Of a DNA stretch of 25,055 nt, positions 2,014 to 24,990 are shown in pieces (the first letter of the stretch is position 1; each line of letters begins with the position of its first letter). Source of the DNA: a virus. The DNA is taken from IMG/VR virus record IMGVR_UViG_3300008117_000313, positions 1-25,055 of that record; one strand, 5' to 3'. The notes beneath the pieces are model-generated. The model ran no database searches and had not been told where the DNA came from. It was given only the letters and a program-made list of their open reading frames with translations. The translations under genes and the position numbers were made by a program.

Positions 2014-2235
2014 TTAAGCAGCGCCCAGCCCTATCGCGCCCAACAACTTCTTTAGCGAGAACGCCTCGTACATCCCCGTCTCCGGGTTAAGGGTGATCTT
2101 TACATCCGGGTCCAACTGTCGAAGGATCGCTTCGATCCCAGCTAATTCGCTAGGGTGAATATGCAAAAGGGTGGAATCTCCACCCCTGCCTTCCGAAGCA
2201 ACCTGCTTTGCAAGAGACGCAATACCTTTGCTCAT
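2014..2235 (-). CDS. N-terminal part of the frameshifted virion-associated protein
   Basis: 73 codons from an ATG that overlaps the upstream stop as ATGA. It contains the segments LHIHPSELAGIEAIL and NPETGMYEAF, which resemble the N-terminal portion of long, Ala/Gly-rich phage virion-region proteins in which this part is normally followed by a hydrophobic Ala/Gly-rich stretch. Here the frame stops (TAA at 2014-2016) just as such a stretch begins. The missing continuation (LKAAAAGAGKAATASG) sits in the frame one base later and runs into the 1179-1895 gene. I read the pair as one gene of about 1.06 kb. Function unknown. Confidence 0.65.
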   Translation of the reverse strand: MSKGIASLAKQVASEGRGGDSTLLHIHPSELAGIEAILRQLDPDVKITLNPETGMYEAFSLKKLLGAIGLGAA

Positions 2236-2528
2236 GTCGTTACTGTCACCGTACCCAGTTTAATCTTTATCTTGTTTGTTGGTGCGAACACTTGTCCTTG
2301 CACGACAATCCTTAATACGCCATCTCCATCTGCCCACACCATGCCATCCCTAAGCCCATATCCACTTCGTGGGCATTGCAGGAGCATGATGGATGCTCCA
2401 ACCATTTCTCCAGGAACCCGTTGATTGTATATGTGGATTCCAAGGTTCTTAACAAGAGAGTCGAAGTATGTCTGATCGTATTCTGATGGAGGCTTGGGGA
2501 GCGTCTGTATTGGAGTGTTGCGGTTCAT
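2232..2528 (-). CDS. Small conserved phage protein, function unknown
   Basis: 98 aa. The start overlaps the upstream beta-propeller gene by four bases (ATGA), and its own stop overlaps the next start the same way, so it is translationally coupled in the late operon. The sequence alternates short hydrophobic strands (for example VGASIMLLQC and VLRIVVQGQVF) with loops and looks like a small beta-rich domain. No signal peptide, membrane segment or metal motif is visible. Position directly after the gp10-like protein suggests a tail accessory role, but this is inference only. Confidence 0.75.
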   Translation of the reverse strand: MNRNTPIQTLPKPPSEYDQTYFDSLVKNLGIHIYNQRVPGEMVGASIMLLQCPRSGYGLRDGMVWADGDGVLRIVVQGQVFAPTNKIKIKLGTVTVTT

Positions 2529-4432
2529 TTCATGCCGTCCGGTTGAATCTGAAGACGGTTAGACCCAAGTCTCCACTTGTACACAGGATCTCCACCTGTG
2601 AAAGACTCTGCCTTCAATACAATCTGTCGCGCCCGAATACGCAAATTCTTCTGCGTAGAAGTTGGGATCTCTCCCTGCACAAGCACAGTGTTTGTCTGAT
2701 ACCCTGATTGGCTCATCGGATAATTGACACCGTACACCTGCACATTCACCTTCTTCGTAATTCCAGCAGCACTCACCCTTGGATCGGTAACAAACTGGAC
2801 GTCAGGGATAATCCTGCTGATGAAGGAGAACTGCTCCCCATCTTCGATGTCGATAGGGCCAGAGGTAACGTGAGCAACAATGTTAGATCCATCAGCAGTA
2901 TATCCGTACTCGTGCTGGTAGAGGCTAGTCGTAGTATTCTTCTCTGTTAAATCTCCATTCGGCATAGCGCCAATAGGAAATCCATCCGTAGCCAGATCCA
3001 ACCATGCAGTACGATCCATCGTTCCTATCGTCCACAGGTTCTCAACGTAGTTATAGCAAACGTATCGACTATTCTCTCCAGTTCCATCTGTAACACTGGG
3101 ATACCACCAGTAGATCTCATTGAACTGAGCGTTTACTCCAGCAGCTACCTTCTGCTTCTGCGACCATTCCAAGTCTGAGAACACATAGCTCAACACAGGA
3201 CACTGCATCTTAACAACACTTCCGCTGTACATATAGAAGTTGTTGTTGTCCATCCAGTACACTGTGCCTCTGGCGTCTACGCCAGCCTTAGGCCCGATAA
3301 TCGAGACAGACTCGCCAATCCGGGTGAAGCTAAAGGTGTAGGGCGGTCCCGTATATGCCATCGCAAACAGCGCCTTGTCCGTAAAGACAAGGATCTGCTG
3401 TTGGGTAGGAATAGCAGAAACGATCTCAGAACCGTTGGAGATGGTGAAACCTCCAGCAGTGTTGTCCGTCCTGGGTTCCCAGTCCAGATAATCTTCCTGG
3501 GAAGACCAACGAACCAGCAAAAGGTTCTGGCTTGAAGACCCTATCTCGTTGCATCCGAAGGCAATCAAATGCCTGTCAACGTCAGAGACAAGTACCTGAG
3601 ACGCTACCGTAGGCGCATCGTTAGCGCCAGCAATAGAGGATAAAGACACCGCTCTCGTATTAAGAGGGTCAACCCCGCTAGCAGTCCAGTAGTAGATGTC
3701 TCCATACCTGGGGTTGATAACCAAGTCCTGACCGTAGTTAGAGTTCGACCAAAACCTAAGATTATCCGTAGGACTGATTGGCGCAAATGCGCTACCCCAA
3801 GGGCCACGACCCCAAGGGCCTGATCCCCATCCAGTTGCATAGACTTGAGTGTTCAAGCCAACATTGATCTGGAAAGCAGCACTGACGCTAGCACCACCTC
3901 CAGAAGTAGAGGGAGTAATCGTAGCGCCAGCAGGGAAAACAACGTAGAAATTGGTGGCGTCAATAATCTCAGTTATCTGTACTTCTACATTCAACTGATC
4001 TGCTGTAAAGCCGTCAAATCCAGTAGCGCCAGAGAAGGTTACCCAATCGAATTCGATTGCATCGTGACCCGTAGGAGTTGTCACCTTCATCTTCCCGGTG
4101 CCTACTTCCTGCGTCTGGAAAGGATTGCTCCCTAAAGCAATCGTTGCCCTAATCGGGGTGATGTCGTTAATGTATTGACCAGCTTCGATGTAATACTTCT
4201 GGTTTGTTCCTAAACCAATAAACCTCTCTAGCGAGAGAGAGGTCCATTGAATCATCGACCTGCAAGTACCGTAGATGGTTTCAGCATCTGCATATGCCTG
4301 CCATCCACCAATCACCTCCGGGAAACCCAGCCTAAACCTAATCTTGTCTGAGTCGTACCAAGACCCTTCAGAAGAGTATTCGGTAACGTCCTTGACGATC
4401 CCAGGTTTAGGTTGGATTTTTACCAGAGGCAT
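2525..4432 (-). CDS. P22 gp10-like tail hub / DNA-stabilisation beta-propeller protein
   Basis: 635 aa, ATG start four bases downstream of the previous stop. The N-terminus (MPLVKIQPKPGIVKDVTEYS) followed by a statement-like series of beta strands with GGW, WTS and RFIGLG motifs is typical of the large beta-propeller proteins of short-tailed phages related to P22 gp10, which plug the head-tail channel after packaging and form the distal tail hub. Later parts (LIAFGCNE, EDYLDWEP, QQQILVFTDKALF, VYWMDNNNFYMYSG) repeat the propeller-blade pattern. It is longer than P22 gp10 (about 470 aa); the extra length includes an inserted domain near residues 110-190 and a Gly/Trp-rich loop (GWGSGPWGRGPWGS) near residues 200-215. 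Family assignment is by recognition of the pattern, not by alignment. Confidence 0.65.
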   Translation of the reverse strand: MPLVKIQPKPGIVKDVTEYSSEGSWYDSDKIRFRLGFPEVIGGWQAYADAETIYGTCRSMIQWTSLSLERFIGLGTNQKYYIEAGQYINDITPIRATIALGSNPFQTQEVGTGKMKVTTPTGHDAIEFDWVTFSGATGFDGFTADQLNVEVQITEIIDATNFYVVFPAGATITPSTSGGGASVSAAFQINVGLNTQVYATGWGSGPWGRGPWGSAFAPISPTDNLRFWSNSNYGQDLVINPRYGDIYYWTASGVDPLNTRAVSLSSIAGANDAPTVASQVLVSDVDRHLIAFGCNEIGSSSQNLLLVRWSSQEDYLDWEPRTDNTAGGFTISNGSEIVSAIPTQQQILVFTDKALFAMAYTGPPYTFSFTRIGESVSIIGPKAGVDARGTVYWMDNNNFYMYSGSVVKMQCPVLSYVFSDLEWSQKQKVAAGVNAQFNEIYWWYPSVTDGTGENSRYVCYNYVENLWTIGTMDRTAWLDLATDGFPIGAMPNGDLTEKNTTTSLYQHEYGYTADGSNIVAHVTSGPIDIEDGEQFSFISRIIPDVQFVTDPRVSAAGITKKVNVQVYGVNYPMSQSGYQTNTVLVQGEIPTSTQKNLRIRARQIVLKAESFTGGDPVYKWRLGSNRLQIQPDGMK

Positions 4433-4435
4433 ACA

Positions 4436-4654
4436 TTAGGCAACTACAGGTTCAAGCTCTTCTTTCTTTCGGCTTTGCTTCAGTTCCTCAGAGAAGAACT
4501 TCAGCGCCACATTCAACTGATCGGCGCTAAACTGAACTTGCGTCAGCTTTGCCTGAAGGTCAGAAATCTGAGACACCAAGTACTTCTGACGATCATTTAG
4601 CTCACTCATGAATACTCGTTCGTTGTCAATGTAGATGAATTGATCTGGATTCAT
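4436..4654 (-). CDS. Small coiled-coil phage protein, function unknown
   Basis: 72 aa, separated by three bases from the gp10-like gene. From about residue 16 (an internal Met at MSELNDRQ is an alternative start) the sequence is a long amphipathic helix with heptad-like hydrophobics (LVSQISDLQAKLTQVQFSAD), ending in a charged tail. It resembles short coiled-coil proteins often seen beside phage tail genes. No known activity; a structural spacer, chaperone or regulatory role would fit equally well. Confidence 0.65.
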   Translation of the reverse strand: MNPDQFIYIDNERVFMSELNDRQKYLVSQISDLQAKLTQVQFSADQLNVALKFFSEELKQSRKKEELEPVVA

Positions 4655-5702: not shown

Positions 5703-8396
5703 TTAGTTCCTTGCTTTCAAAATGTCGATCTCTGCTTTGAGTTCCTGGATAGCTTTGACCAGAATGGGGATCAGTTTGGCGTCAGATAGCCCGTAGAATT
5801 CTTCCTTGGTTCCGTCTTTTAGCTCAACTTCATTGCTCTTCACAACGGATTCAAGGTACGGCTCGTCGGCTAGCGCCGCCTGGACATCCTGGGCGATAAA
5901 GCCAACCTGAGTACCACTGTCAAAATTGTGAATCTCATGCTGCTTCCAGGTAAACGATACGGGATTGAGCTTCCCGACCACACCCAGTCCAGACTTGATT
6001 GGGGAAATGTTCTCTTTGTATCGCCCGTCAGAGGTAGCGATTGTGGCGTTGGTAGCGAAGATCTGGCTGTTGACTTGAAGCAGGTACGATCCATTTGAAG
6101 TGGTGTATCCGATTAGGACATTGCCACTAGAGTCCATACGCATCCTCTCGATAGCGCCAATCGCAAACACTAATCTTGTTGCATTATTCAGAATCGTCTC
6201 AGAAGTACTACTAGCAAATAAATAATTCGCGGAACCTGGAGTTGTCCCAAAATTATAGATCGCACTATATCCAGAACCACCTGTATAAGGACCCAGGATC
6301 AATCCCTGCGTACCATCACTGAACGCACTCAATCCTCTTACATCAAGTAATCTACCAGGACTCGCCGTTCCAATACCGACGTTGCCGCCGTAACCTTGCA
6401 AAGTTAAATTTGACGGCACCGCGCCACCGTTAAAATTCACACCCTGAATATACGGCGACCCATCTACGCTCGTAGCGCCGACTGCTAACTGATATCCGCT
6501 GGAAGCATTGGCACGAACCGTGAAGCCAGCGTTTGAATTTGAGGTGGCAAGCGTACTGGCAGATTGATTCAACGACCCAACTACAGCCAGCTTTGCGTTA
6601 GTTGATTCTGTCGCAGGACTCGCCGTTCCAATACCGACGTTGCCGCCGTCCTGAACGAGTAATATCTTTTCAATGGTGTAGTTTGCAGAATTTCGCACCA
6701 CTTCAATCGGCGTTGCAGCGGCATTATATGCATCGTTCACCGTCTGAAGCATCCACGAACGGTTGACAGTATGCACTTGCATTCGCCAATGCTTTTCGTT
6801 AGTCGCATTGTCTGGATTCGTTTGACCGATCGCAGAATAGCCACCAGAAACAGATAAAACTTCCTTCGGATCGGTAGTATTAATCGCTACCCTGCCGCCA
6901 GATGGCGCAAGTGCTATATTCCTCCAAGCCACTCCTTGGGAAAGCGCATTAATCGACAGATACGGCGTAGCGGCACTTGCGTGGAACGTAATGAATCCAC
7001 CCTGACCGCCTGCAACATTGGAGTTGCCCACATGGCAATTGGTGTCAGTTGTCGATCCGCCCGAATAAAACCGCACGCTCGTCGATTGCACGTCCAGTTT
7101 GTTCGCTGGGCTATCGGTGCTTGCTTTGTTTATCAGCACACTCCCGCCGTTCAGCAGCCGCATAATTTCCGAAGCGCCGTTGTTTCCCGCCTGGAAGATA
7201 ATATCCGCGCCAGTCGTGCCAACGCCAGAGGTGGACCGCAGGGTAAGAGTAGAGGTGGTTCCTGTGCCGCCGATAACAAGCGGTACAGTTGCGCTCGTCG
7301 TAATCGTAGGAGTCGCAATCGTAGGCGATGTGCCAAACACAAGCGCCCCGCTACCCGTCTCGTCCGTTACCGCAGAAGCCAGATTCGCGCTAGAAGGGGT
7401 AGCAAGGAACGTAGCAACATTAGACCCAAGGCCAGAGACACCCGTGCTAATCGGCAAACCCGTACAGTTCGTCAGTGTGCCAGAGGTCGGAGTGCCAAGA
7501 ACCGGAGTCACCAGTACAGGAGTATTGGCGAATACCAATGCACCGCTACCCGTCTCATCCGTTACGGCGCTTGCAAGATTGGCGCTCGAAGGTGTAGCTA
7601 GAAACGTAGCGACATTAGTGCCAAGCCCAGACACACCGGAAGAGATCGGAAGACCTGTGCAATTAGTAAGAGTCCCTGAAGTTGGCGTACCCAGTAGCGG
7701 GGTAACCAACGTGGGGGAGGTAGCAAGAACGACAGAACCCGTACCCGTTACAGCACTAACCTGCGTACCGTTGATCCGCAAGACGTTTCCAGCACCCGCA
7801 GTATCAAGCGTCTTGTTCGTAAACGTATCGGTCGTAGCCTTGCCTACAAGCGTGTCTGTTGCGGCGGGAAGAGTAAGGGTACCTGAGGCCGTAGCATTCG
7901 CCTGCAACGTCGTGTTGCCGCTGCTAGAGCCAACAAACACAACTCCTGTAGCCTCCAACAAAGCAGTCAGCTTTAGACTGGTTAAGACCTCTTTAGCGGA
8001 AGCACCCGACCCTGCACCGTTAAGATAAACAATCGACGAGTACCCAGGTTTGATCGTAACGGTAGAGCCAGATCCCTGCGAGATGATGACGTTCTGCCCA
8101 CCTGTCGTATTGTTCTGGACAAAGTAATGCTTCTTAACCGTGTTCGGCGTAATGCTAACCGTATTCGCAGCAGCAAGCGCACCCGTAAAGCTGATTACCT
8201 TGTTTCTTCCATCGGCAGCAGTACCGTCAGGAATGTTTAAGGTATGCGTTGTCCCCGTCAATGCAACAGCAACAAACCCATCAATCGCTGTATCGAACAA
8301 ATCGAAGTTCGTGTTGGTAGTATTGCCCCAAGTACCAGACTGTTCACCTGTTGCAATCTTTTGGATCTTGTTATTAGAAGTATATGTAGAGGGCAT
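5703..8396 (-). CDS. Tail fibre/tailspike with C-terminal S74 intramolecular chaperone
   Basis: 897 aa, the longest structural protein here. Residues 1-60 (MPSTYTSNNKIQKIATGEQS onward) are a fibre attachment-type N-terminus. Residues 236-300 and 301-365 form two tandem 65-residue repeats (each beginning GTPTSGTLTNCTGLP and containing ATPSSANLASAVTDETGSGA), a low-complexity Ser/Thr/Gly shaft. Further shaft and knob-like blocks follow, with NVGIGTASP repeated. The C-terminal 108 residues from DGRYKENISP (790) to the end are a Peptidase_S74 domain: KENISPI, GFIAQDVQ and the final coiled-coil helix are all present. In this family the chaperone trimerises the fibre and then cuts itself off between Ser and Asp; here that bond would be Ser789-Asp790, leaving a mature fibre of about 789 residues. 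It recognises the host surface. Confidence 0.9.
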   Translation of the reverse strand: MPSTYTSNNKIQKIATGEQSGTWGNTTNTNFDLFDTAIDGFVAVALTGTTHTLNIPDGTAADGRNKVISFTGALAAANTVSITPNTVKKHYFVQNNTTGGQNVIISQGSGSTVTIKPGYSSIVYLNGAGSGASAKEVLTSLKLTALLEATGVVFVGSSSGNTTLQANATASGTLTLPAATDTLVGKATTDTFTNKTLDTAGAGNVLRINGTQVSAVTGTGSVVLATSPTLVTPLLGTPTSGTLTNCTGLPISSGVSGLGTNVATFLATPSSANLASAVTDETGSGALVFANTPVLVTPVLGTPTSGTLTNCTGLPISTGVSGLGSNVATFLATPSSANLASAVTDETGSGALVFGTSPTIATPTITTSATVPLVIGGTGTTSTLTLRSTSGVGTTGADIIFQAGNNGASEIMRLLNGGSVLINKASTDSPANKLDVQSTSVRFYSGGSTTDTNCHVGNSNVAGGQGGFITFHASAATPYLSINALSQGVAWRNIALAPSGGRVAINTTDPKEVLSVSGGYSAIGQTNPDNATNEKHWRMQVHTVNRSWMLQTVNDAYNAAATPIEVVRNSANYTIEKILLVQDGGNVGIGTASPATESTNAKLAVVGSLNQSASTLATSNSNAGFTVRANASSGYQLAVGATSVDGSPYIQGVNFNGGAVPSNLTLQGYGGNVGIGTASPGRLLDVRGLSAFSDGTQGLILGPYTGGSGYSAIYNFGTTPGSANYLFASSTSETILNNATRLVFAIGAIERMRMDSSGNVLIGYTTSNGSYLLQVNSQIFATNATIATSDGRYKENISPIKSGLGVVGKLNPVSFTWKQHEIHNFDSGTQVGFIAQDVQAALADEPYLESVVKSNEVELKDGTKEEFYGLSDAKLIPILVKAIQELKAEIDILKARN
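7302..7691 (-). repeat. Two tandem 195-base repeats inside the tail-fibre gene
   Basis: The coding sequence for residues 236-300 (7691-7497) and 301-365 (7496-7302) is repeated with a 195-base period. Protein identity between the two copies is very high over the first 54 residues; at DNA level the copies differ at many third positions (for example ctcgtccgt versus ctcatccgt), so they are old enough to have drifted under protein-level selection. Such shaft repeats commonly change copy number and alter fibre length. Confidence 0.8.
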
Positions 8397-17128: not shown

Positions 17129-17323
17129 TCAGTCTCCATCATCTTCTTGCACCATTTGTTTCCATGTTTCTAGAAACTCTTGGCGCATTTGCTGGAGTCC
17201 AGCGAGTTTGCCAACCATCATCTTGTACTCTGCGTAGTCAGCGCAGGAGCCAGAGACGAGATGGGTGGTAATCGTCTCTGAAAGTTCGTCTACTCGATGG
17301 AAAAATTTAGACTTCAGGTCCAA
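17129..17323 (-). CDS. Very small phage protein between portal and GroES, function unknown
   Basis: 64 aa if started at the TTG at 17323, preceded by GGGAGG with a four-base spacer. An ATG at 17341 and a longer frame up to 17461 exist, but they overlap the portal gene more and lack a comparable ribosome-binding site. The start lies inside the portal C-terminal codons, so it is coupled to portal translation. The protein is helical (FHRVDELSETITTHLVSG, YAEYKMMVGKLAGLQQMR) with an acidic end, resembling tiny helical proteins often placed after portal genes. Role unknown. Confidence 0.65.
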   Translation of the reverse strand: MDLKSKFFHRVDELSETITTHLVSGSCADYAEYKMMVGKLAGLQQMRQEFLETWKQMVQEDDGD

Positions 17324-19874
17324 CCGACCCTCCCATAGCATCCATTCGAGCCAGAATCTCAGCAATCTTAGCCTTTGCCATGTCGTTTTCGGTCTGAATG
17401 CGCTGCATATCAGCCTGAATACGGGCTTCGGACTCCTGCCGATCCTTCTGGAGACGTTCAATTTCTAGTTGCAGGCGCTGATTGTCTAGCGCCAGTTCGC
17501 TTTGTACCTGTTGCGCCTTTACTGCGGCGGTTTGCTGTGCCATTTGCGCTTGAGACTGGATCCGTGCCGTCTCCAATTGCGCTTTCGTCTGGTTCTTGAC
17601 CATCTCCAACTGTGCTTTCTGCTGCGATTCTTGCGCTTTCTGCTGGAGTTCAGCCTGTTTGATCTGCAACTCAGCCTGCTGAAGCTGCATAACAGGATCT
17701 TGAGCTTGCTGCTGAAACTGTTGCTGCTGCTGTTGCGCTTGCGCCTGCTGTAGAAGCATCGTAGATGCGTCTGCAATGGCCTTGCTGAGGTTCGATTCAA
17801 TGTCCCCAGGCATAGGTTCTCCCGGCGCGGGAAGCGGTATACCGAGCTTCTGTTCGATCTGGGCGCGATATGCAAACCCAACGTGTTCTGCGATATGCGC
17901 CATGAATGCAGCGAAGATTGCGTTTGCCTGAGGATTCTGTCCTAGCTGTTGTTGGACGGACGGAGATTGCACATACGCCATATGCGCTTTGATGTGCGAC
18001 TCATGATCCTGCACCTGATAAGCCTTTGCAGGCTTCATGTTGGTGAGGTTGATATTCTCAGAGAGCGGGTCGAGTAGGGGAGCGTCTATCTTCTCTGGAA
18101 TAATCTTCTTAACGTCCTTAATGCCAAGGACTTCCAGCATCTTCCGATGCAACTCAGGCAGGTCGTAGAATTGCGGCGCTTGAGCAGCAAGCTGGATTGC
18201 AGCCTGATACTGCATAACCCGCTGCGACATCGTAGCCGCATTCGGATCAGATACAGGGATAACGTCGATGCGATCACTAAAGTCATCGCGTTTGCTCCCG
18301 TCCATCTTTCCGAAATCAATCTTGTAACGATCCGATCCGCTATCGCGGATTACCCGGACCAGAATAGAAAACTCGTCTTGCAGGGAAGCGTGTAGCCTTG
18401 CCTGGATTGCGCTCATTACCTTGAGCGCCCGTTCCATAATTGCCAGCGTTGTCCCTACTGGAGCCTGAGAATTAACGTCTCCAATCTCAGCATCAGCAAT
18501 AGATGCCAGCCTGCGACCATCTTCGACGACATTCCCCAAGAGTTGGAACAGAGTCTGCGAAGGTTCTTTGTACGGGAGGGGATAGAGCGAACGAGCGATG
18601 TCACCATTCGCAACGTCTACATCTCGCCACTCCCCAGGTTGAATTGGAGAATCGTCTCCAGCAACACGCATCCCCTTTGCTTTCAAGCCGCCAGGAAGAT
18701 TTGCCAGGGTGCCAGAATCAATTAGCTGGCGCAAAATAGCGGTAGAGGCTTTGGCGTTTCCACCGATGAGGTGAATCAAGCCGTAGCCGTATGCACCCAT
18801 ACCAGGAACATAGTTGTATGCCGAGAACCAGATCAGCTTGTTCTTCTTCGGATCGCTTTCGTCCCAATTGCGATAGACAGAAAGTACCTTGCCGGAAGAC
18901 TTGTCTACCGTGACAACATACGGAAGAGCGATTCCTGTTGGCTCACCGTCTTCGTCGGTATGCTCCAGCCCTTCAATGTCCAGATCAATGTGGGCCTCAA
19001 GCAACGTGACCATATCCTCGTCACCCTGCTTGTACTCGTAGCTAATCTTGTCGATCTTGTCTTTAAGCTGAGAGTTAGAGTCGTAATCAGGTTGAATGCT
19101 TGCTTCCCGATAAAACCCTGTATACTGTAGCTTCTTTACTTCGTTTATGTTCTTTGCAAGAACATGGATATACCTGCTTGCCGTTTTAAGCGATGTAGCC
19201 CCATACGGCATAATGAAGTCCTGCGCCGGGACATACTTGATATCGGGCATATCCGTCAGAGGATCGAAGCAGATCTTCTTGAAAGCAGATCCGCACAGCG
19301 CCAGACCAAACAGCATTCGCTCTGTTTCAGGCCGATAGTCTTTCAAATCCTGCGTTAGCAGGTAGTTCATGTCGGTCTGGATTCGGAGAGCCTGATCTTC
19401 TTTTTCTTCGGTTACCTCTCCAACGATCTGAGTCTTGACCGGACCGGAGGCCGGGAAGATCTCCATGATGGCATTGGATTGGAAGCGAACAGCGGCCTCC
19501 ATAATCATGTTGTGGAAAAGTCCACACGCGCCAGCCCAAGGCTTGTTGCGATCCTCTGTCTTTACCCCTAGATAATCCAGGCCCTCTTTATAGGCGCGTT
19601 CCCAATCCTGCCTGGAGTTCAAGTCCTCCTCGTATACATCGAGGACTTTTGTTCCGATGCTGGATAGGATATTGTCGTCCAGATGCTCTGCTAGGTTGGC
19701 AGAGTGAGGAAGGTCTTTCAGGCTATCGCCTTCCTCCTCAGGTGGGCCAAACTCAATAATCATCCCACCGTCTTCAGTTTCAATTGAGACAGCCTCTGGA
19801 TTTACAATGTCAATCTCAACCTCCGCTTCTTCTCTAAGCAGGGGGTCCATCTCTTCCAAAGGCTTGTCGATCAT
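17307..19874 (-). CDS. Portal protein (SU10/P22-like)
   Basis: 855 aa. An acidic N-terminus (1-60) is followed by the portal body: LNSRQDWERAYKEGLDYLG, NKPWAGACGLFHNMIMEAAV, RFQSNAIMEIFPASGPV, QDFIMPYGATSLKTASRYIH, and LIWFSAYNYVPGMGAYGYGL, which match the large portal proteins of the SU10 type. Later come PVGTTLAIMERALKVMSAIQ and the crown helices. Residues 707-855 are a Gln/Ala/Lys-rich helix with long glutamine runs, consistent with the C-terminal barrel helix of P22-like portals, here unusually long and Gln-rich. Twelve copies form the DNA entry and exit ring and bind the terminase during packaging. The gene starts 8 bases after the small 19883-20170 gene. Confidence 0.85.
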   Translation of the reverse strand: MIDKPLEEMDPLLREEAEVEIDIVNPEAVSIETEDGGMIIEFGPPEEEGDSLKDLPHSANLAEHLDDNILSSIGTKVLDVYEEDLNSRQDWERAYKEGLDYLGVKTEDRNKPWAGACGLFHNMIMEAAVRFQSNAIMEIFPASGPVKTQIVGEVTEEKEDQALRIQTDMNYLLTQDLKDYRPETERMLFGLALCGSAFKKICFDPLTDMPDIKYVPAQDFIMPYGATSLKTASRYIHVLAKNINEVKKLQYTGFYREASIQPDYDSNSQLKDKIDKISYEYKQGDEDMVTLLEAHIDLDIEGLEHTDEDGEPTGIALPYVVTVDKSSGKVLSVYRNWDESDPKKNKLIWFSAYNYVPGMGAYGYGLIHLIGGNAKASTAILRQLIDSGTLANLPGGLKAKGMRVAGDDSPIQPGEWRDVDVANGDIARSLYPLPYKEPSQTLFQLLGNVVEDGRRLASIADAEIGDVNSQAPVGTTLAIMERALKVMSAIQARLHASLQDEFSILVRVIRDSGSDRYKIDFGKMDGSKRDDFSDRIDVIPVSDPNAATMSQRVMQYQAAIQLAAQAPQFYDLPELHRKMLEVLGIKDVKKIIPEKIDAPLLDPLSENINLTNMKPAKAYQVQDHESHIKAHMAYVQSPSVQQQLGQNPQANAIFAAFMAHIAEHVGFAYRAQIEQKLGIPLPAPGEPMPGDIESNLSKAIADASTMLLQQAQAQQQQQQFQQQAQDPVMQLQQAELQIKQAELQQKAQESQQKAQLEMVKNQTKAQLETARIQSQAQMAQQTAAVKAQQVQSELALDNQRLQLEIERLQKDRQESEARIQADMQRIQTENDMAKAKIAEILARMDAMGGSVGPEV

Positions 19875-20176: not shown

Positions 20177-22744
20177 TTAGTAGTAGTCTGCTTTGGCGCG
20201 AACAACGTATTCTTCTTCGTCGTCGTTCTGTGTGGAAATAAAACCACCTTGCCTAAACCTCAACAAAGCCTGCGTTGAGCTATCAACAAGGTCATCATGA
20301 TCTGAATTAGGAAACGATGCAAACTGCTCTATTACCTCTTCTGCCCAGCGCAATGGAGGCGCATAGACAAAGCCAGAGGCAAATATGTCGCTTACAGCGT
20401 TCACGCGAACTATCTTATCATTTCCTCTAGATGGAGTGTAATCCTGTACCGGGATGCCCATCTTCCTCAACTCGAAGACAAGAGGAGCGCCAGCAGCCTT
20501 TGCTTCGATAATGCAGGCATCTGGCTTCCAGTACTTGTATTCCTCTAGGGCTTTTTGCTTGAGTTCGGGGAACTCAAGTTTATCTTGATAAGCATTGAGT
20601 AGGATGATGTTTGCCCTTTGCTTGCCGTCTGAATCTCTGTCGTAAAACACTCCCCATGTAGTACAGGCGCTGTAGTCTGACCGAGTTCCCTTGGTGAGCG
20701 CCGTGTCCCAGGACTGGATAATGTACTCGCACTTGGGGGGATCGTCTTTATCCCAGATCTTCCACCACTCTCTCTTTACCAGCGCCCCTTCTTCCGAGGT
20801 AGGATTTTGCTGGTACTGAGCATTCCACTTGGCAACAGGCAATTCTGCCTTGATCTTTTCCAGTTCTTCTAAAGGCCAGAACTCAGGCCACAGAGGATTG
20901 CCGGAAGGCATGATTGCCGGGAACTCAATCACTTCCCATTCATCTGCACCGTCTCTTTCCGATGCGGCCTTCAAGATCTGCCCACAGAGATCCTTTTTAG
21001 ACCACCTCGTCATAACGAGAATAATTGCGCCTCCAGGTTGCAAACGCTGACGAGGGCCAGACGTATACCACTCGTATACGCTATCGTAAACACCTGGGCT
21101 TGTTGCTGCTATAGCAGCCTCTTGTTCGCTATGTGGGTCATCTATGATTAAAAGATCCGACCCTTTGCCCGTCACACTACCACCAACACCTATTGCAAAG
21201 TATTCGCCCTGCTTATTTGTGTTCCACCTGCCAGCAGCCTTGCTATCTGAAGACAAAGAGACTCCAGAGAAAATTGATTGATATTGTTGACTACCTACTA
21301 AGTTCCTGACCTTTCTGCCAAACCCAACTGCTAATTCAGCAGTATGTGCTGTTTGAATTACTTTTTTGTGTGGGTATTTACCAAGGAACCACGCTGGAAG
21401 CAAATAAGAGCTAAACTCGCTTTTTGTGTTGTGGGTTGGGATCATGCCTTCCCCTGCCAGGAAAAGCCCATCCTCTCTATTGACCTTTATGCATCTGGTT
21501 TCTGATTTCAAGTTTAACTTCTTGATACTAATATACCTGCCAATAGTTTTTGTATGACCAACTGCTCTGTCGTTCTTTCTTGGCAATTTAGATATATCTT
21601 TAGCATAAAAGCTAACCTTGTAATGCAACCCGTGATCCTTGCCATCCAAGAACACCCTTTGCTCTAAGAGTGAATTTTTTATACCCAACGAGTGCAGGAT
21701 TATCCTGAATGAATCTATTATTCTTTTGTTCTTGTTGGCAAAAAAGCATTGACCAGCTTTTGACACATTCCCATCTGTGTCCATCAGGCCCCTAACAAGT
21801 TCCATCTTTTGTGCGGGGCTGGACATGATGTACTGTTCCGGTATGTGCTTATCGACAAGAACTTCAATTGACCTGAGCTTCTCCTTCAGGCCTAACACGC
21901 CAAATGTAAATCGAGTAGATTGATCGGTTGTTTTGTATCCCTTGGATTCAATAATCGGCCTGAGTACCCGCTGGTCCTCATCGTGCATCGTGATGACACC
22001 ATTGTTCTTATGCCCGTCTCCAAGCCAGACGCCTAGCATATATGGATCAATCGGAAGTTCAGCGTCCTGTATGTTTAAAGGGGATACAGCAGGGAGCATT
22101 GGATTCCTAATGGACTTGCCATCGGAATCCGTTTCCTTGATGTAAACCCCGCCTCCACGCTTGGTCTTGAGGATCGCGCCGGATTGTCTTTTGTACAGAT
22201 CTTCAGTGGAATATGTGTGAAAGACACCGTGCTTTCGACTCAATCGAACTGTCCAAAGATGCTCTCCGTCAACATCAACGTAGCGCCCGTCATCAGTGGA
22301 CACTCGATAAATCTCTCGATCAGTAAAGACATTAGAAACTCCAGTCACCTCAACTGGGTTGCCGTCTGGGTGAAACACCATATCGCCAACTTCAATTTCG
22401 GCAATCGTCTTCCAACCTTTTGTCGTTATGATTTTAGTGTCTAGGCTTAAGGCGTGACGAGGAGCCATGTTAATTATCAATCTTTTGCATTTACCTTCTG
22501 CTACTCGCTCAAAGGCATCTGCCATGATTGCATGGTGCCGACCAGGAATAAACGCAGGCCACATCTCTTTCACAAAGTCTAAGAACTTGTTCTGGCAGGT
22601 TTGCACCTTGAGGTACTTCTCGTATTTCGTTAAAAGCTCTGCCAGTTCAAGCTGCTCGTGGTATGGCAGCGTCTTTGCTTTTGCGATGATTGTGTCAATC
22701 TGCTGAGGAGTGTATTCCCCGGCGAGGACATTCCTTATATTCAC
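20177..22744 (-). CDS. terL: Terminase large subunit (packaging ATPase/nuclease), intein-containing
   Basis: 855 aa precursor from GTG (22744), in-frame intein at 98-439. After splicing the host protein would be 513 aa, normal for a large terminase. The exteins join to NMAPRHTKSEF, an adenine/Walker A-type P-loop (the conserved Lys is 441). Walker B is DLLIIDDPHS (about 530-539) and the coupling motif is VMTRWSKKDL (about 578-587). The nuclease domain has SWDTALTKGTRSDYSA (Asp680), IIEAKAAGAP (Glu747) and HDDLVDSSTQALL (Asp817, Asp818), the three metal-binding clusters of the RNase H-like terminase fold. It cuts and threads DNA through the portal. The intein splits the ATPase motif, so unspliced precursor should be inactive. 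Start confidence is moderate because GTG has only a weak ribosome-binding site. Confidence 0.9.
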   Translation of the reverse strand: MNIRNVLAGEYTPQQIDTIIAKAKTLPYHEQLELAELLTKYEKYLKVQTCQNKFLDFVKEMWPAFIPGRHHAIMADAFERVAEGKCKRLIINMAPRHALSLDTKIITTKGWKTIAEIEVGDMVFHPDGNPVEVTGVSNVFTDREIYRVSTDDGRYVDVDGEHLWTVRLSRKHGVFHTYSTEDLYKRQSGAILKTKRGGGVYIKETDSDGKSIRNPMLPAVSPLNIQDAELPIDPYMLGVWLGDGHKNNGVITMHDEDQRVLRPIIESKGYKTTDQSTRFTFGVLGLKEKLRSIEVLVDKHIPEQYIMSSPAQKMELVRGLMDTDGNVSKAGQCFFANKNKRIIDSFRIILHSLGIKNSLLEQRVFLDGKDHGLHYKVSFYAKDISKLPRKNDRAVGHTKTIGRYISIKKLNLKSETRCIKVNREDGLFLAGEGMIPTHNTKSEFSSYLLPAWFLGKYPHKKVIQTAHTAELAVGFGRKVRNLVGSQQYQSIFSGVSLSSDSKAAGRWNTNKQGEYFAIGVGGSVTGKGSDLLIIDDPHSEQEAAIAATSPGVYDSVYEWYTSGPRQRLQPGGAIILVMTRWSKKDLCGQILKAASERDGADEWEVIEFPAIMPSGNPLWPEFWPLEELEKIKAELPVAKWNAQYQQNPTSEEGALVKREWWKIWDKDDPPKCEYIIQSWDTALTKGTRSDYSACTTWGVFYDRDSDGKQRANIILLNAYQDKLEFPELKQKALEEYKYWKPDACIIEAKAAGAPLVFELRKMGIPVQDYTPSRGNDKIVRVNAVSDIFASGFVYAPPLRWAEEVIEQFASFPNSDHDDLVDSSTQALLRFRQGGFISTQNDDEEEYVVRAKADYY
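21428..22453 (-). other. Intein with LAGLIDADG homing endonuclease, inside terL
   Basis: 342 residues (98-439 of the precursor). Block A starts with Ala1 (ALSLDTKIITTKGW) instead of the usual Cys or Ser; block B is the region VDVDGEHLWTV with the conserved His162. The endonuclease part has two intact LAGLIDADG motifs, LGVWLGDG (237-244, catalytic Asp243) and LVRGLMDTDG (316-325, Asp322 or Asp324). Block F (CIKVNREDGLFLAGEG) and block G (MIPTHN, His438-Asn439) follow, with Thr440 as the first C-extein residue. Ala1 inteins splice without the first N-S shift, with Thr attacking the N-terminal junction directly. The insertion separates the His and the Thr-Lys-Ser of the P-loop. Both parts appear intact, so the element is probably splicing and homing competent. 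Confidence 0.9.
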
Positions 22745-22790: not shown

Positions 22791-23033
22791 ATGGAAAAAA
22801 TTGAACAGCTCCTTTCTGACCTTCGAGTCGAAGCGGCTGAAAGCAGAGTTCACCTTGCTCACATCTCAGAGCATCTAGCAAAGCTAAACGGGCGCACCCA
22901 AAAAAGCGAAGAAAGAATTTCCTCGCTAGACACTGAGATCCAAAGCGCCAAGAAAGCATGGACAGCCGTTGTAGCAATTGCCTCTGGCGTTGGAGCAACA
23001 TTATCTTGGCTTTACAATTTCCTGTCGAAGTAA
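22791..23033 (+). CDS. Small coiled-coil protein with C-terminal membrane segment
   Basis: 80 aa on the plus strand, divergent from terL. An in-frame upstream ATG (22710) lies inside terL and is unlikely; the start at 22791 gives MEKIEQLLSDLRVEAAES. Residues 1-55 form a helical, heptad-like coiled coil; residues 57-77 (WTAVVAIASGVGATLSWLYNF) form a probable membrane helix. This layout (cytoplasmic coiled coil, one membrane segment near the C-terminus) resembles XhlA-type and other small phage lysis accessory proteins; that is analogy only. No ribosome-binding site is clear. It converges on a hairpin terminator. Confidence 0.65.
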   Translation: MEKIEQLLSDLRVEAAESRVHLAHISEHLAKLNGRTQKSEERISSLDTEIQSAKKAWTAVVAIASGVGATLSWLYNFLSK

Positions 23034-23065
23034 AAAAAGGCCCCTCTTTCGAGGAGCCTATTTTT
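23034..23065 (-). terminator. Minus-strand intrinsic terminator, possibly bidirectional
   Basis: In the minus direction, GGCTCCTC (23058-23051) pairs with GAGGGGCC (23046-23039) through one G-U pair and closes a GAAA tetraloop; a run of seven T follows at once (23038-23032 region). On the plus strand the same stem has a C/A mismatch but is followed by TATTTTT, so it may also stop the 22791-23033 transcript. It ends the two-gene minus-strand operon (23661-23137). Confidence 0.8.
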
Positions 23066-23136
23066 ATGCCCAAACCAACAGGAGGACCGAACAATCGGAG
23101 GAGGTGTCCGGTACAAGACTCCTTTATCCTAGCACA

Positions 23137-23711: not shown

Positions 23712-23740
23712 TTGCGATTGCGATCAGGGTGCTGTATGAT
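23712..23740 (+). promoter_or_regulatory. Sigma70-like promoter
   Basis: -35 TTGCGA (23712-23717, four of six consensus bases), a 17-base spacer, and -10 TATGAT (23735-23740, five of six). Transcription would start near 23747, at the first helix of the putative structured RNA. The optimal spacing is the best reason to believe it. There is no coding frame immediately downstream, which supports a non-coding transcript. Confidence 0.6.
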
Positions 23741-24026
23741 GAATGTGCCGAAAGGTTCTCAGGCAGACGTTATGGCGGCTGCATCACCACTGAGATAGCC
23801 ATGGATTCAAGAAAGCACTGGTGAGACGACAATAATTTTCCATAGGGCCGCAGTTCAAAGAGCGGTACTGAGTTCTGGTAGCCACCCACTATCGGCATTC
23901 ACCTAGAGAATCAATGCTTACGCTCTAGGTTAAAGAGATGACGGGCCAGGGACATTGGGATGCCTTGGTCCAGCTTGGAAACCGAAGGAAAAGGATCAGA
24001 CCCGAGATATTGCATATACCTTCCTT

Positions 24027-24068
24027 CTTATCTATATTTTAGATGCAATTCTATAATGTATAGATAAG
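24027..24068. repeat. Perfect 10-base inverted repeat in an AT-rich segment
   Basis: CTTATCTATA at 24027-24036 and its exact complement at 24059-24068 flank 22 bases that contain a second inverted pair, TAGA/TCTA (24040-24043 and 24050-24053). The surrounding 24020-24105 stretch is almost free of G/C. Read as RNA it is a long nested hairpin within the candidate RNA; read as DNA it could be an operator or melting site for replication. Confidence 0.7.
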
Positions 24069-24364
24069 AGTATATTATCTTAGATATTCTATAGATTATA
24101 TACAAAGCCTACGCGCTGGATCTGTATATGGTATATCCCAAGAAAAGCCCTATTGTCTTTTTTTTGGATAAGGGGTAGCGCGAAGTGACTGGCTAACACT
24201 ATTGAGCAAAGGAGAATCACCGTTGTTCTGGAAGTGGCAGCGTGGAAACTGTGGACCTTGGCCAGTCTCTTGGCGCTATCACCAGATAGCGTTAGATTTA
24301 AAAATTCAAACAAGGAAAAGAATAAAAGCAAACGACAAAAAGGAAAACCCACAACTACCCGACA

Positions 24365-24387
24365 GCCCCCGCCTGAGCAGCGGGGGC
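24365..24387 (+). other. GC-rich hairpin at the 3' side of the structured region
   Basis: Eight perfect pairs, nearly all G-C, with a seven-base CTGAGCA loop. The bases after it (GAGCTAAAGC) contain no T-run, so it is not an ordinary intrinsic terminator. It is probably a structural element or the 3' end of the candidate RNA. Confidence 0.6.
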
Positions 24388-24481
24388 GAGCTAAAGCAGG
24401 TTAAGCAACTTTAACGATACGCGCCAAGTTTAGGCACGTCCCTCCCTCCTGCTACTCCCTGAAAAGCATAAGCTATTGAAT

Positions 24482-24709
24482 ATGCTAGGGAAACCGCTCC
24501 TACTCGATACTGACGTTGCAAAGCTGACAGGTGCCTCTGTGTCCTCCGTACGCAAATGGAGAAGCCAGAATAGAGGACCGTGCTTCTTGCGTCTTGGTGC
24601 ATCTGTACGATACAAGGAAGAAGATGTGCTACACTACATGATGTCTGGCACACTCTATGAGGAAACAGGCATCAAGATAAAAAGGAATAAACGTAGTGAA
24701 AGACAATGA
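24482..24709 (+). CDS. Small helix-turn-helix (HTH_17) DNA-binding protein
   Basis: 75 aa from the ATG at 24482 (a TTG two codons earlier is also possible; neither has a clear ribosome-binding site). Residues 6-55 match the small winged HTH fold: LLLDTDVAKLTGASVSSVRK, WRSQNRGPCFLRLGASVRY and EEDVLHYMMSG. GP-F-R-G-VRY is the usual HTH_17/AlpA/excisionase signature. A short basic tail follows. The stop overlaps the next HTH gene as ATGA, so the two are made together. Probably an early regulator or excisionase-like protein; target unknown. Confidence 0.8.
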   Translation: MLGKPLLLDTDVAKLTGASVSSVRKWRSQNRGPCFLRLGASVRYKEEDVLHYMMSGTLYEETGIKIKRNKRSERQ

Positions 24710-24990
24710 CACTAAGCGAAATGATGAACAACAATATGCCGATTGAACCGCTTCTCCGGGAAGGCGATGTCGCAAAGATCTTGAACGTATCGGTTCAGCA
24801 GATCCGCACTATGCGCCGGATCAACACTGGGCCGAAGGTTACCAGGATTGGCGCTCGTACCGTTCGCTACAGCCCTTCGGATATTCGGGCATATCTAACG
24901 TCCTTCCAGCCCAAACAAACGAACCAGGAGGCTCCTGTGGCGCAGAAGCATCCCTCTACAACGATGTTGGTCGAGGACATCTTCAAATGA
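24706..24990 (+). CDS. Second small helix-turn-helix (HTH_17) DNA-binding protein
   Basis: 94 aa, start overlapping the previous stop (ATGA); Met6, Met7 or Met11 are other possible starts. Residues 16-66 form the HTH_17 domain: LLREGDVAKILNVSVQQIRT followed by INTGPKVTRIGARTVRYSPS and IRAYLTSFQ. It is clearly a paralogue of the upstream gene (REGDVAKI versus DTDVAKLT, both ending in VRY before an acidic helix), but lacks the usual Trp in the recognition helix. A Gln/Pro-rich linker and a short tail end the protein. The pair may bind adjacent sites or form a heterodimer (inference). Confidence 0.8.
   Translation: MTLSEMMNNNMPIEPLLREGDVAKILNVSVQQIRTMRRINTGPKVTRIGARTVRYSPSDIRAYLTSFQPKQTNQEAPVAQKHPSTTMLVEDIFK

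Follow-up and report, generated by a model that had tools for sequence, protein, structure and literature searches.

We describe a folded RNA, here termed class A, in the non-coding gap between divergent gene sets of related phages; as judged by sequence models it is a new class of phage structured RNA and is neither GOLLD nor ROOL. The DNA analysed (the window) is a 25,055-base IMG/VR virus record, in which the RNA region (23745-24390) lies in the gap between the leftward and the rightward genes. Comparison of homologues shows that its 5' domain, D1 (Table 1), is a structured plus-strand RNA. An earlier note on this DNA had proposed one large new structured RNA spanning the whole region; the structure is borne out by covariation in relatives and the novelty by the lack of an Rfam match, but the single continuous fold gives way to two domains joined by a linker. 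Large structured RNAs of bacteria and phages are few; class A and an unrelated RNA found in the same slot (class B) are new molecules to test, and comparing close relatives in which one RNA has naturally taken the place of another offers a route to asking what such RNAs do.

The leftward genes of the window encode packaging and virion proteins, and the rightward operon opens with two HTH_17/excisionase-like genes. A 56.9-kb record (L003/G001) is nearly identical to the window; among its genes to the right of the gap are those for a methyltransferase, a RusA-like resolvase and an exonuclease. The terminase large subunit probably carries an intein: its residues 312-380 are a LAGLIDADG domain, and the gene, about 2,565 bases long here, measures 1,539 bases in relatives such as L008. 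Between the terminase gene and the RNA, at 23028-23068, a GC hairpin flanked by an A-run and a T-run resembles a bidirectional intrinsic terminator, which suggests that these phages use U-tract terminators; the tail hairpin of the RNA has no U-tract.

Table 1. Features of the RNA region, its flanking genes and the class B loci (window coordinates unless a record is named).
Feature	Position	Strand	Details
Tail fibre	5703-8396	leftward	
Portal protein	17307-19874	leftward	
Terminase large subunit	20177-22744	-	
Sigma-70-like promoter	23712..23740	+	-35 TTGCGA, spacer 17, -10 TATGAT
D1, class A core, conserved 5' domain	23745..24010	+	~265 nt; RNAalifold z -10.4; covariation
5' hairpin (helix 1), GCC-GAAA-GGU	23747..23756	+	2/3 pairs changed on both sides, pairing kept in relatives
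Helix P1, CUCAG(23758-23762)/CUGAG(23790-23794) stacked on GCAG(23763-23766)/CUGC(23779-23782)	23758..23794	+	
Possible second crossing helix, AUGGC(23772-23776)/GCCAU(23798-23802)	23772..23802	+	weaker support
Pseudoknot PK1, UCACCA(23784-23789) with UGGUGA(23819-23824)	23784..23824	+	two compensatory pairs
Closing helix of multibranched core (helix 4), UUUUCC(23835-23841)/GGAAAAG(23987-23993)	23835..23993	+	3 both-side-changed pairs
Core hairpin (helix 6), CCGC/GCGG	23847..23866	+	3 both-side-changed pairs
Inner closing helix (helix 7), CUGAGUU(23868-23874)/AGCUUGG(23972-23978)	23868..23978	+	100% paired, 6/7 pairs invariant
Hairpin (helix 8), CUGGUAG/CUAUCGG (23875-23881/23889-23895)	23875..23895	+	2 both-side-changed pairs
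Stacked helices 9 and 10, CAUUC/GAGAUG and ACCUAGAG(23901-23908)/CUCUAGGU(23923-23930)	23896..23940	+	
Hairpin (helix 11), GGGCCAGGG/CCUUGGUCC	23943..23971	+	4 both-side-changed pairs
AU-rich unconserved linker	24020..24165	+	'rest' beyond D1 z -0.94 in alignment
D3, long stem	24172..24285	+	~110 nt; alignment z -10.5; single sequence z -4.05
D3 outer stem	GGUAGCGC(24174-24181)/GCGCUAUC(24273-24280)	+	
D3 inner stem	GACUGGCUAA(24187-24196)/UUGGCCAGUC(24258-24267)	+	
D3 apical stem	GCAG(24237-24240)/CUGU(24249-24252)	+	
Conserved ACUACCCGAC, then GC hairpin GCCCCCGC/GCGGGGGC	24354..24387	+	no U-run
HTH_17/excisionase-like gene	24476..24709	+	77 aa; first of rightward operon
Second HTH_17/excisionase-like gene	24706..24990	+	94 aa
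Class B	L021:3960-4400	-	
Class B	L016:4100-4580	-	
Class B	L025:4060-4575	-	
Class B	L017, L011, L013		

Folding of 23745-24390 alone gave -199.6 kcal/mol on the plus strand versus -170.5 for shuffles (z -4.83), better than 20 of 20 dinucleotide shuffles, as against z -2.09 on the minus strand. This agrees with the fold that the earlier note had claimed; a single-sequence fold is suggestive and falls short of proof. Related phages, gathered via their terminase, were compared at the same locus. Homologous non-coding DNA was found at the same place with blast and nhmmer, at 80% identity over 273 bases in L008/L009 and 76-78% over a core of ~100 bases in L010 and L015, and a pattern search added L084, L088 and L089, all close to L008. 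The D1 alignment (A3) comprises eight sequences, with 62 pairs in 11 helices, and its support comes from four independent lineages only, the window and three other phage lineages. Within it, 98.4% of helix cells are paired and 19 of the 62 pairs have changed on both sides, compared with 1-3 pairs in slid controls. The observed covariation score was reached by none of 500 shuffles, a test that relatedness inflates. The RNAalifold consensus fold scored z -10.4 against 200 column shuffles preserving conservation and gap pattern (z -6.1 for the reverse complement of the alignment). Across the conserved helices, G-U cells number 61 and A-C cells are absent, matching the suspicion that G-U pairs occur only in the plus-strand reading and indicating that plus is the selected strand; the count supports this choice without proving it, because fold prediction itself prefers G-U over A-C.

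Pairing is kept through sequence change in several elements of D1. Helices 9 and 10 occur in successive versions (CUAGAG/CUCUAG, CUGGGG/CCUCAG and CUGAAG/CUUCAG), and P1 in three, each fully paired (5/5): CUCAG/CUGAG, CCCAG/CUGGG and AUCUG/CAGAU. The bulge of P1 carries UCACC, the 5' strand of PK1, which pairs downstream. This pseudoknot, suspected from CACCA and TGGTG in the window, is confirmed by two compensatory pairs in L010 and L015, in which both strands have changed (UCACC/GGUGA to GGACC/GGUCC). A possible second crossing helix appears as AUGGC/GCCAU or GUGGC/GCCAC and is 5/5 paired in the five sequences tested, with some G-U. By comparison, the 5' helix GTGCCGA/TCGGCAT, once thought to close a 150-base domain, is unconserved and pairs only in the window lineage; its 3' strand UCGG is needed by the covarying local hairpin at 23875-23881/23889-23895.

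Class A is found as a single copy per phage record and only in this slot; in every record that includes both ends, it is flanked by the same pair of small ORFs on one side and the HTH gene on the other. Looser pattern scans of IMG/VR viral contigs and 84,980 prokaryotic genomes (GTDB) returned only chance hits beyond the known loci, a covariance model of the core run over 83 sources (0.77 Mb) returned class A members only, and distant blastn in phage and plasmid records gave just short weak hits of about 40-80 bases. With four lineages and one copy per record, class A is rare. A pattern match in L094 was rejected, as it resembles part of a tape-measure gene. In more distant phages, sliding-window folding of the DNA upstream of the terminase, scored against 16 shuffles, was too noisy to argue for or against RNAs at that place. 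A search of the window with 4227 Rfam models at a permissive E <= 5 gave no match, including to group I/II introns and riboswitches, and the suggested identity with GOLLD or ROOL finds no support in the Rfam models; the loci of class A and class B relatives likewise matched no model, GOLLD, ROOL and RF02976 included. No tRNA was found in the window. L010 (2623-2695), L015 (1123-1195) and L025 (2812-2884) each carry a tRNA gene on the other strand, ~1 kb away from the RNA.

The same slot holds a different RNA in other relatives. In L011/L013/L017, L021, L016 and L025, class A is replaced by a ~450-nt conserved segment, class B, which has no detectable similarity to class A and a predicted fold of its own (z -8.2; 35 predicted pairs changed on both sides). 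Since phages with near-identical terminases carry either A or B, comparison of these loci shows the RNA to be swapped as a cassette. In the terminase tree L025 (class B) is nested within L010/L015 (class A) with support 96/98, and the flanks of L010 and L025 share 94% identity across 372 bases of the gap in which their RNAs differ, pointing to at least one fairly recent replacement. A third RNA family may occupy the slot in Pelagibacter phage HTVC027P, which has about 54% terminase identity over the matched parts: upstream of its terminase, the gap between divergent genes contains a Flavobacterium-1 RNA (RF02976) match of 90 bits (L167:3247-3367, minus strand) that is oriented as class A is. 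We take this gap, from its position, to be the same slot by descent. Sequence 5' of the RF02976 match, such as CACTGATCCC...GGGATCAGT, looks structured as well; the Rfam family may therefore represent the 3' end of some longer RNA.

Beyond D1 the alignment shows no conserved fold by RNAalifold (z -0.94), and the linker itself folds at chance level (24030-24160, z -0.54). Structure resumes at D3, whose stems are retained despite altered sequence in L008, L084 and L021; they were verified by hand because MAFFT sets the window in another register than the remaining rows, and RNAalifold's covariation term for D3 is small. D3 is followed by ACUACCC, which is invariant, and by a GC hairpin that lacks a U-run and is likewise retained with different sequence in L008, L084 and L021. 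In IMG/VR the pattern of D3 and tail is confined to this slot, where it accompanies a class A 5' domain in the window, L008 and L084 and class B in L021. D3 therefore pairs with either 5' domain and is absent from other loci (L010 and L015 have D1 and no recognisable D3), so that D1 and D3 may be separate elements, a 265-nt RNA and an independent leader of the HTH gene. The unconserved linker is consistent with such a division, but no terminator or promoter was found between D1 and D3 in the window, and GOLLD likewise joins a conserved 3' part to a less conserved 5' part (PMC12286853). We regard the division as a serious possibility, held tentatively; this estimate is not to be added to those for the other readings, because a separate D1 would fit action in trans or in cis alike and the matter is independent of that question.

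A promoter at the RNA start, already claimed in the earlier note, gains support from its recurrence. Chance alone gives one such site per 1.3 kb; TTGCGN-17-TANNNT is conserved at the same position upstream of the RNA in 4/4 class A lineages, with counterparts of the same spacer in L008, L084, L010 and L015. Among class B members, L016 and L025 show TTGACC-16-TACAAT or TAGAAT. Directly upstream of the RNA promoter, L010 encodes a 159-aa DUF559 (Vsr-like nuclease fold) ORF (4142-4621, minus strand), as does L015 by sequence; it is possibly a free-standing mobile endonuclease. We consider it somewhat probable that class A is a promoter-driven folded RNA in an exchangeable slot, probably acting in trans. 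It would be transcribed from the plus strand by its own conserved promoter, starting at about 23747, and the transcript would comprise parts that sequence comparison bears out: the pseudoknotted ~265-nt D1, the AU-rich linker, which varies, and, where the lineage has it, the 110-nt D3 with its tail hairpin.

The best-supported rival holds that the RNA acts in cis, as the 5' part of the HTH/excisionase operon transcript, controlling that operon in the manner of a put-like antiterminator or an attenuator. All loci place the RNA immediately before the same HTH operon and in its orientation, as a cis leader would be, which also counts against action in trans; it begins at a promoter, D3 and the ACUACCCGAC-hairpin adjoin the start of the HTH gene, and no plus-sense intrinsic terminator was found to separate D1 from the HTH gene in the window, L010 or L015, so that readthrough into the operon is possible. 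However, known put-type elements are far smaller and simpler than this RNA, two unrelated RNA classes share the same gene arrangement, and in L025 a terminator-like hairpin follows the class B RNA. L015 and L016 moreover have further coding-looking sequence (read directly) separating the RNA from the HTH gene, which fits an RNA unit distinct from that gene. On balance, a cis-acting leader seems somewhat unlikely.

Far less probable is a replication origin in this divergent, partly AU-rich region, with the RNA as primer or regulator. Besides the AU-rich linker and the divergent transcription, it could draw on repeats of the TTTTCCACAGG kind that resemble DnaA boxes and lie between D1 and D3 in L008 (about 2235-2300, minus strand), but these are limited to the L008/L009 lineage, the 56.9-kb relative shows no skew turning point here, its cumulative GC skew declining along almost the whole record to a minimum at 54.6 kb rather than near 13.7 kb, and a primer would need no such large conserved fold. 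A protein-coding region or a chance DNA structure can practically be dismissed: a frame that runs open for 91 codons in L008, L084, L010 and L015 meets a stop at codon 9 in both the window and L006, non-triplet indels break it, substitutions are flat over codon positions 1/2/3 (7/6/10 and 15/14/16), as expected from the claim that the region is gene-free, and G-U pairs occur without A-C.

If class A does act in trans from an exchangeable slot, the folded RNA might work in the GOLLD/ROOL manner, as a binding platform, a decoy or an RNA-only assembly, with individual phages carrying class A, class B or a Flavobacterium-1-containing RNA. More speculatively, and in our view doubtful, freshwater and marine phages would swap unrelated RNAs in this slot upstream of an early operon much as immunity or anti-defence modules are swapped, with targets in the host or in rival phages.

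GOLLD and ROOL are the best-studied large phage RNAs, and both form RNA cages; GOLLD is found in phage or prophage, often close to tRNAs, and its cage is homo-oligomeric. A further class of phage RNA, the short put elements (HK022 put RNA), consists of two hairpins and acts as a polymerase-modifying antiterminator. GOLLD and ROOL are nearest in kind to class A, being phage-borne, large and pseudoknotted, with function unknown (PMC12286853), and class A shows what characterises large structured phage RNAs, a conserved secondary structure with covariation. Like GOLLD (RF02032), it spans several hundred nucleotides with pseudoknots and combines a variable and a conserved part; both occur in lake phages. 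A tRNA lies ~1 kb off in the class A relatives L010 and L015 and in the class B phage L025, and none in the window. The class A core is smaller, however, and neither the window nor its relatives match an Rfam model. ROOL (RF03087) is likewise a large, phage-borne structured RNA with pseudoknots, whereas class A, without an Rfam match, has another sequence and shape. Flavobacterium-1 (RF02976) resembles class A in its place and orientation in the corresponding gap of HTVC027P, but the family, 121 nt long, shows no detectable sequence similarity to either class A or class B. With HK022 put RNA, class A shares the position of a structured RNA at the head of a phage operon, directly after the promoter, but its core is 265 nt long, multibranched and pseudoknotted.
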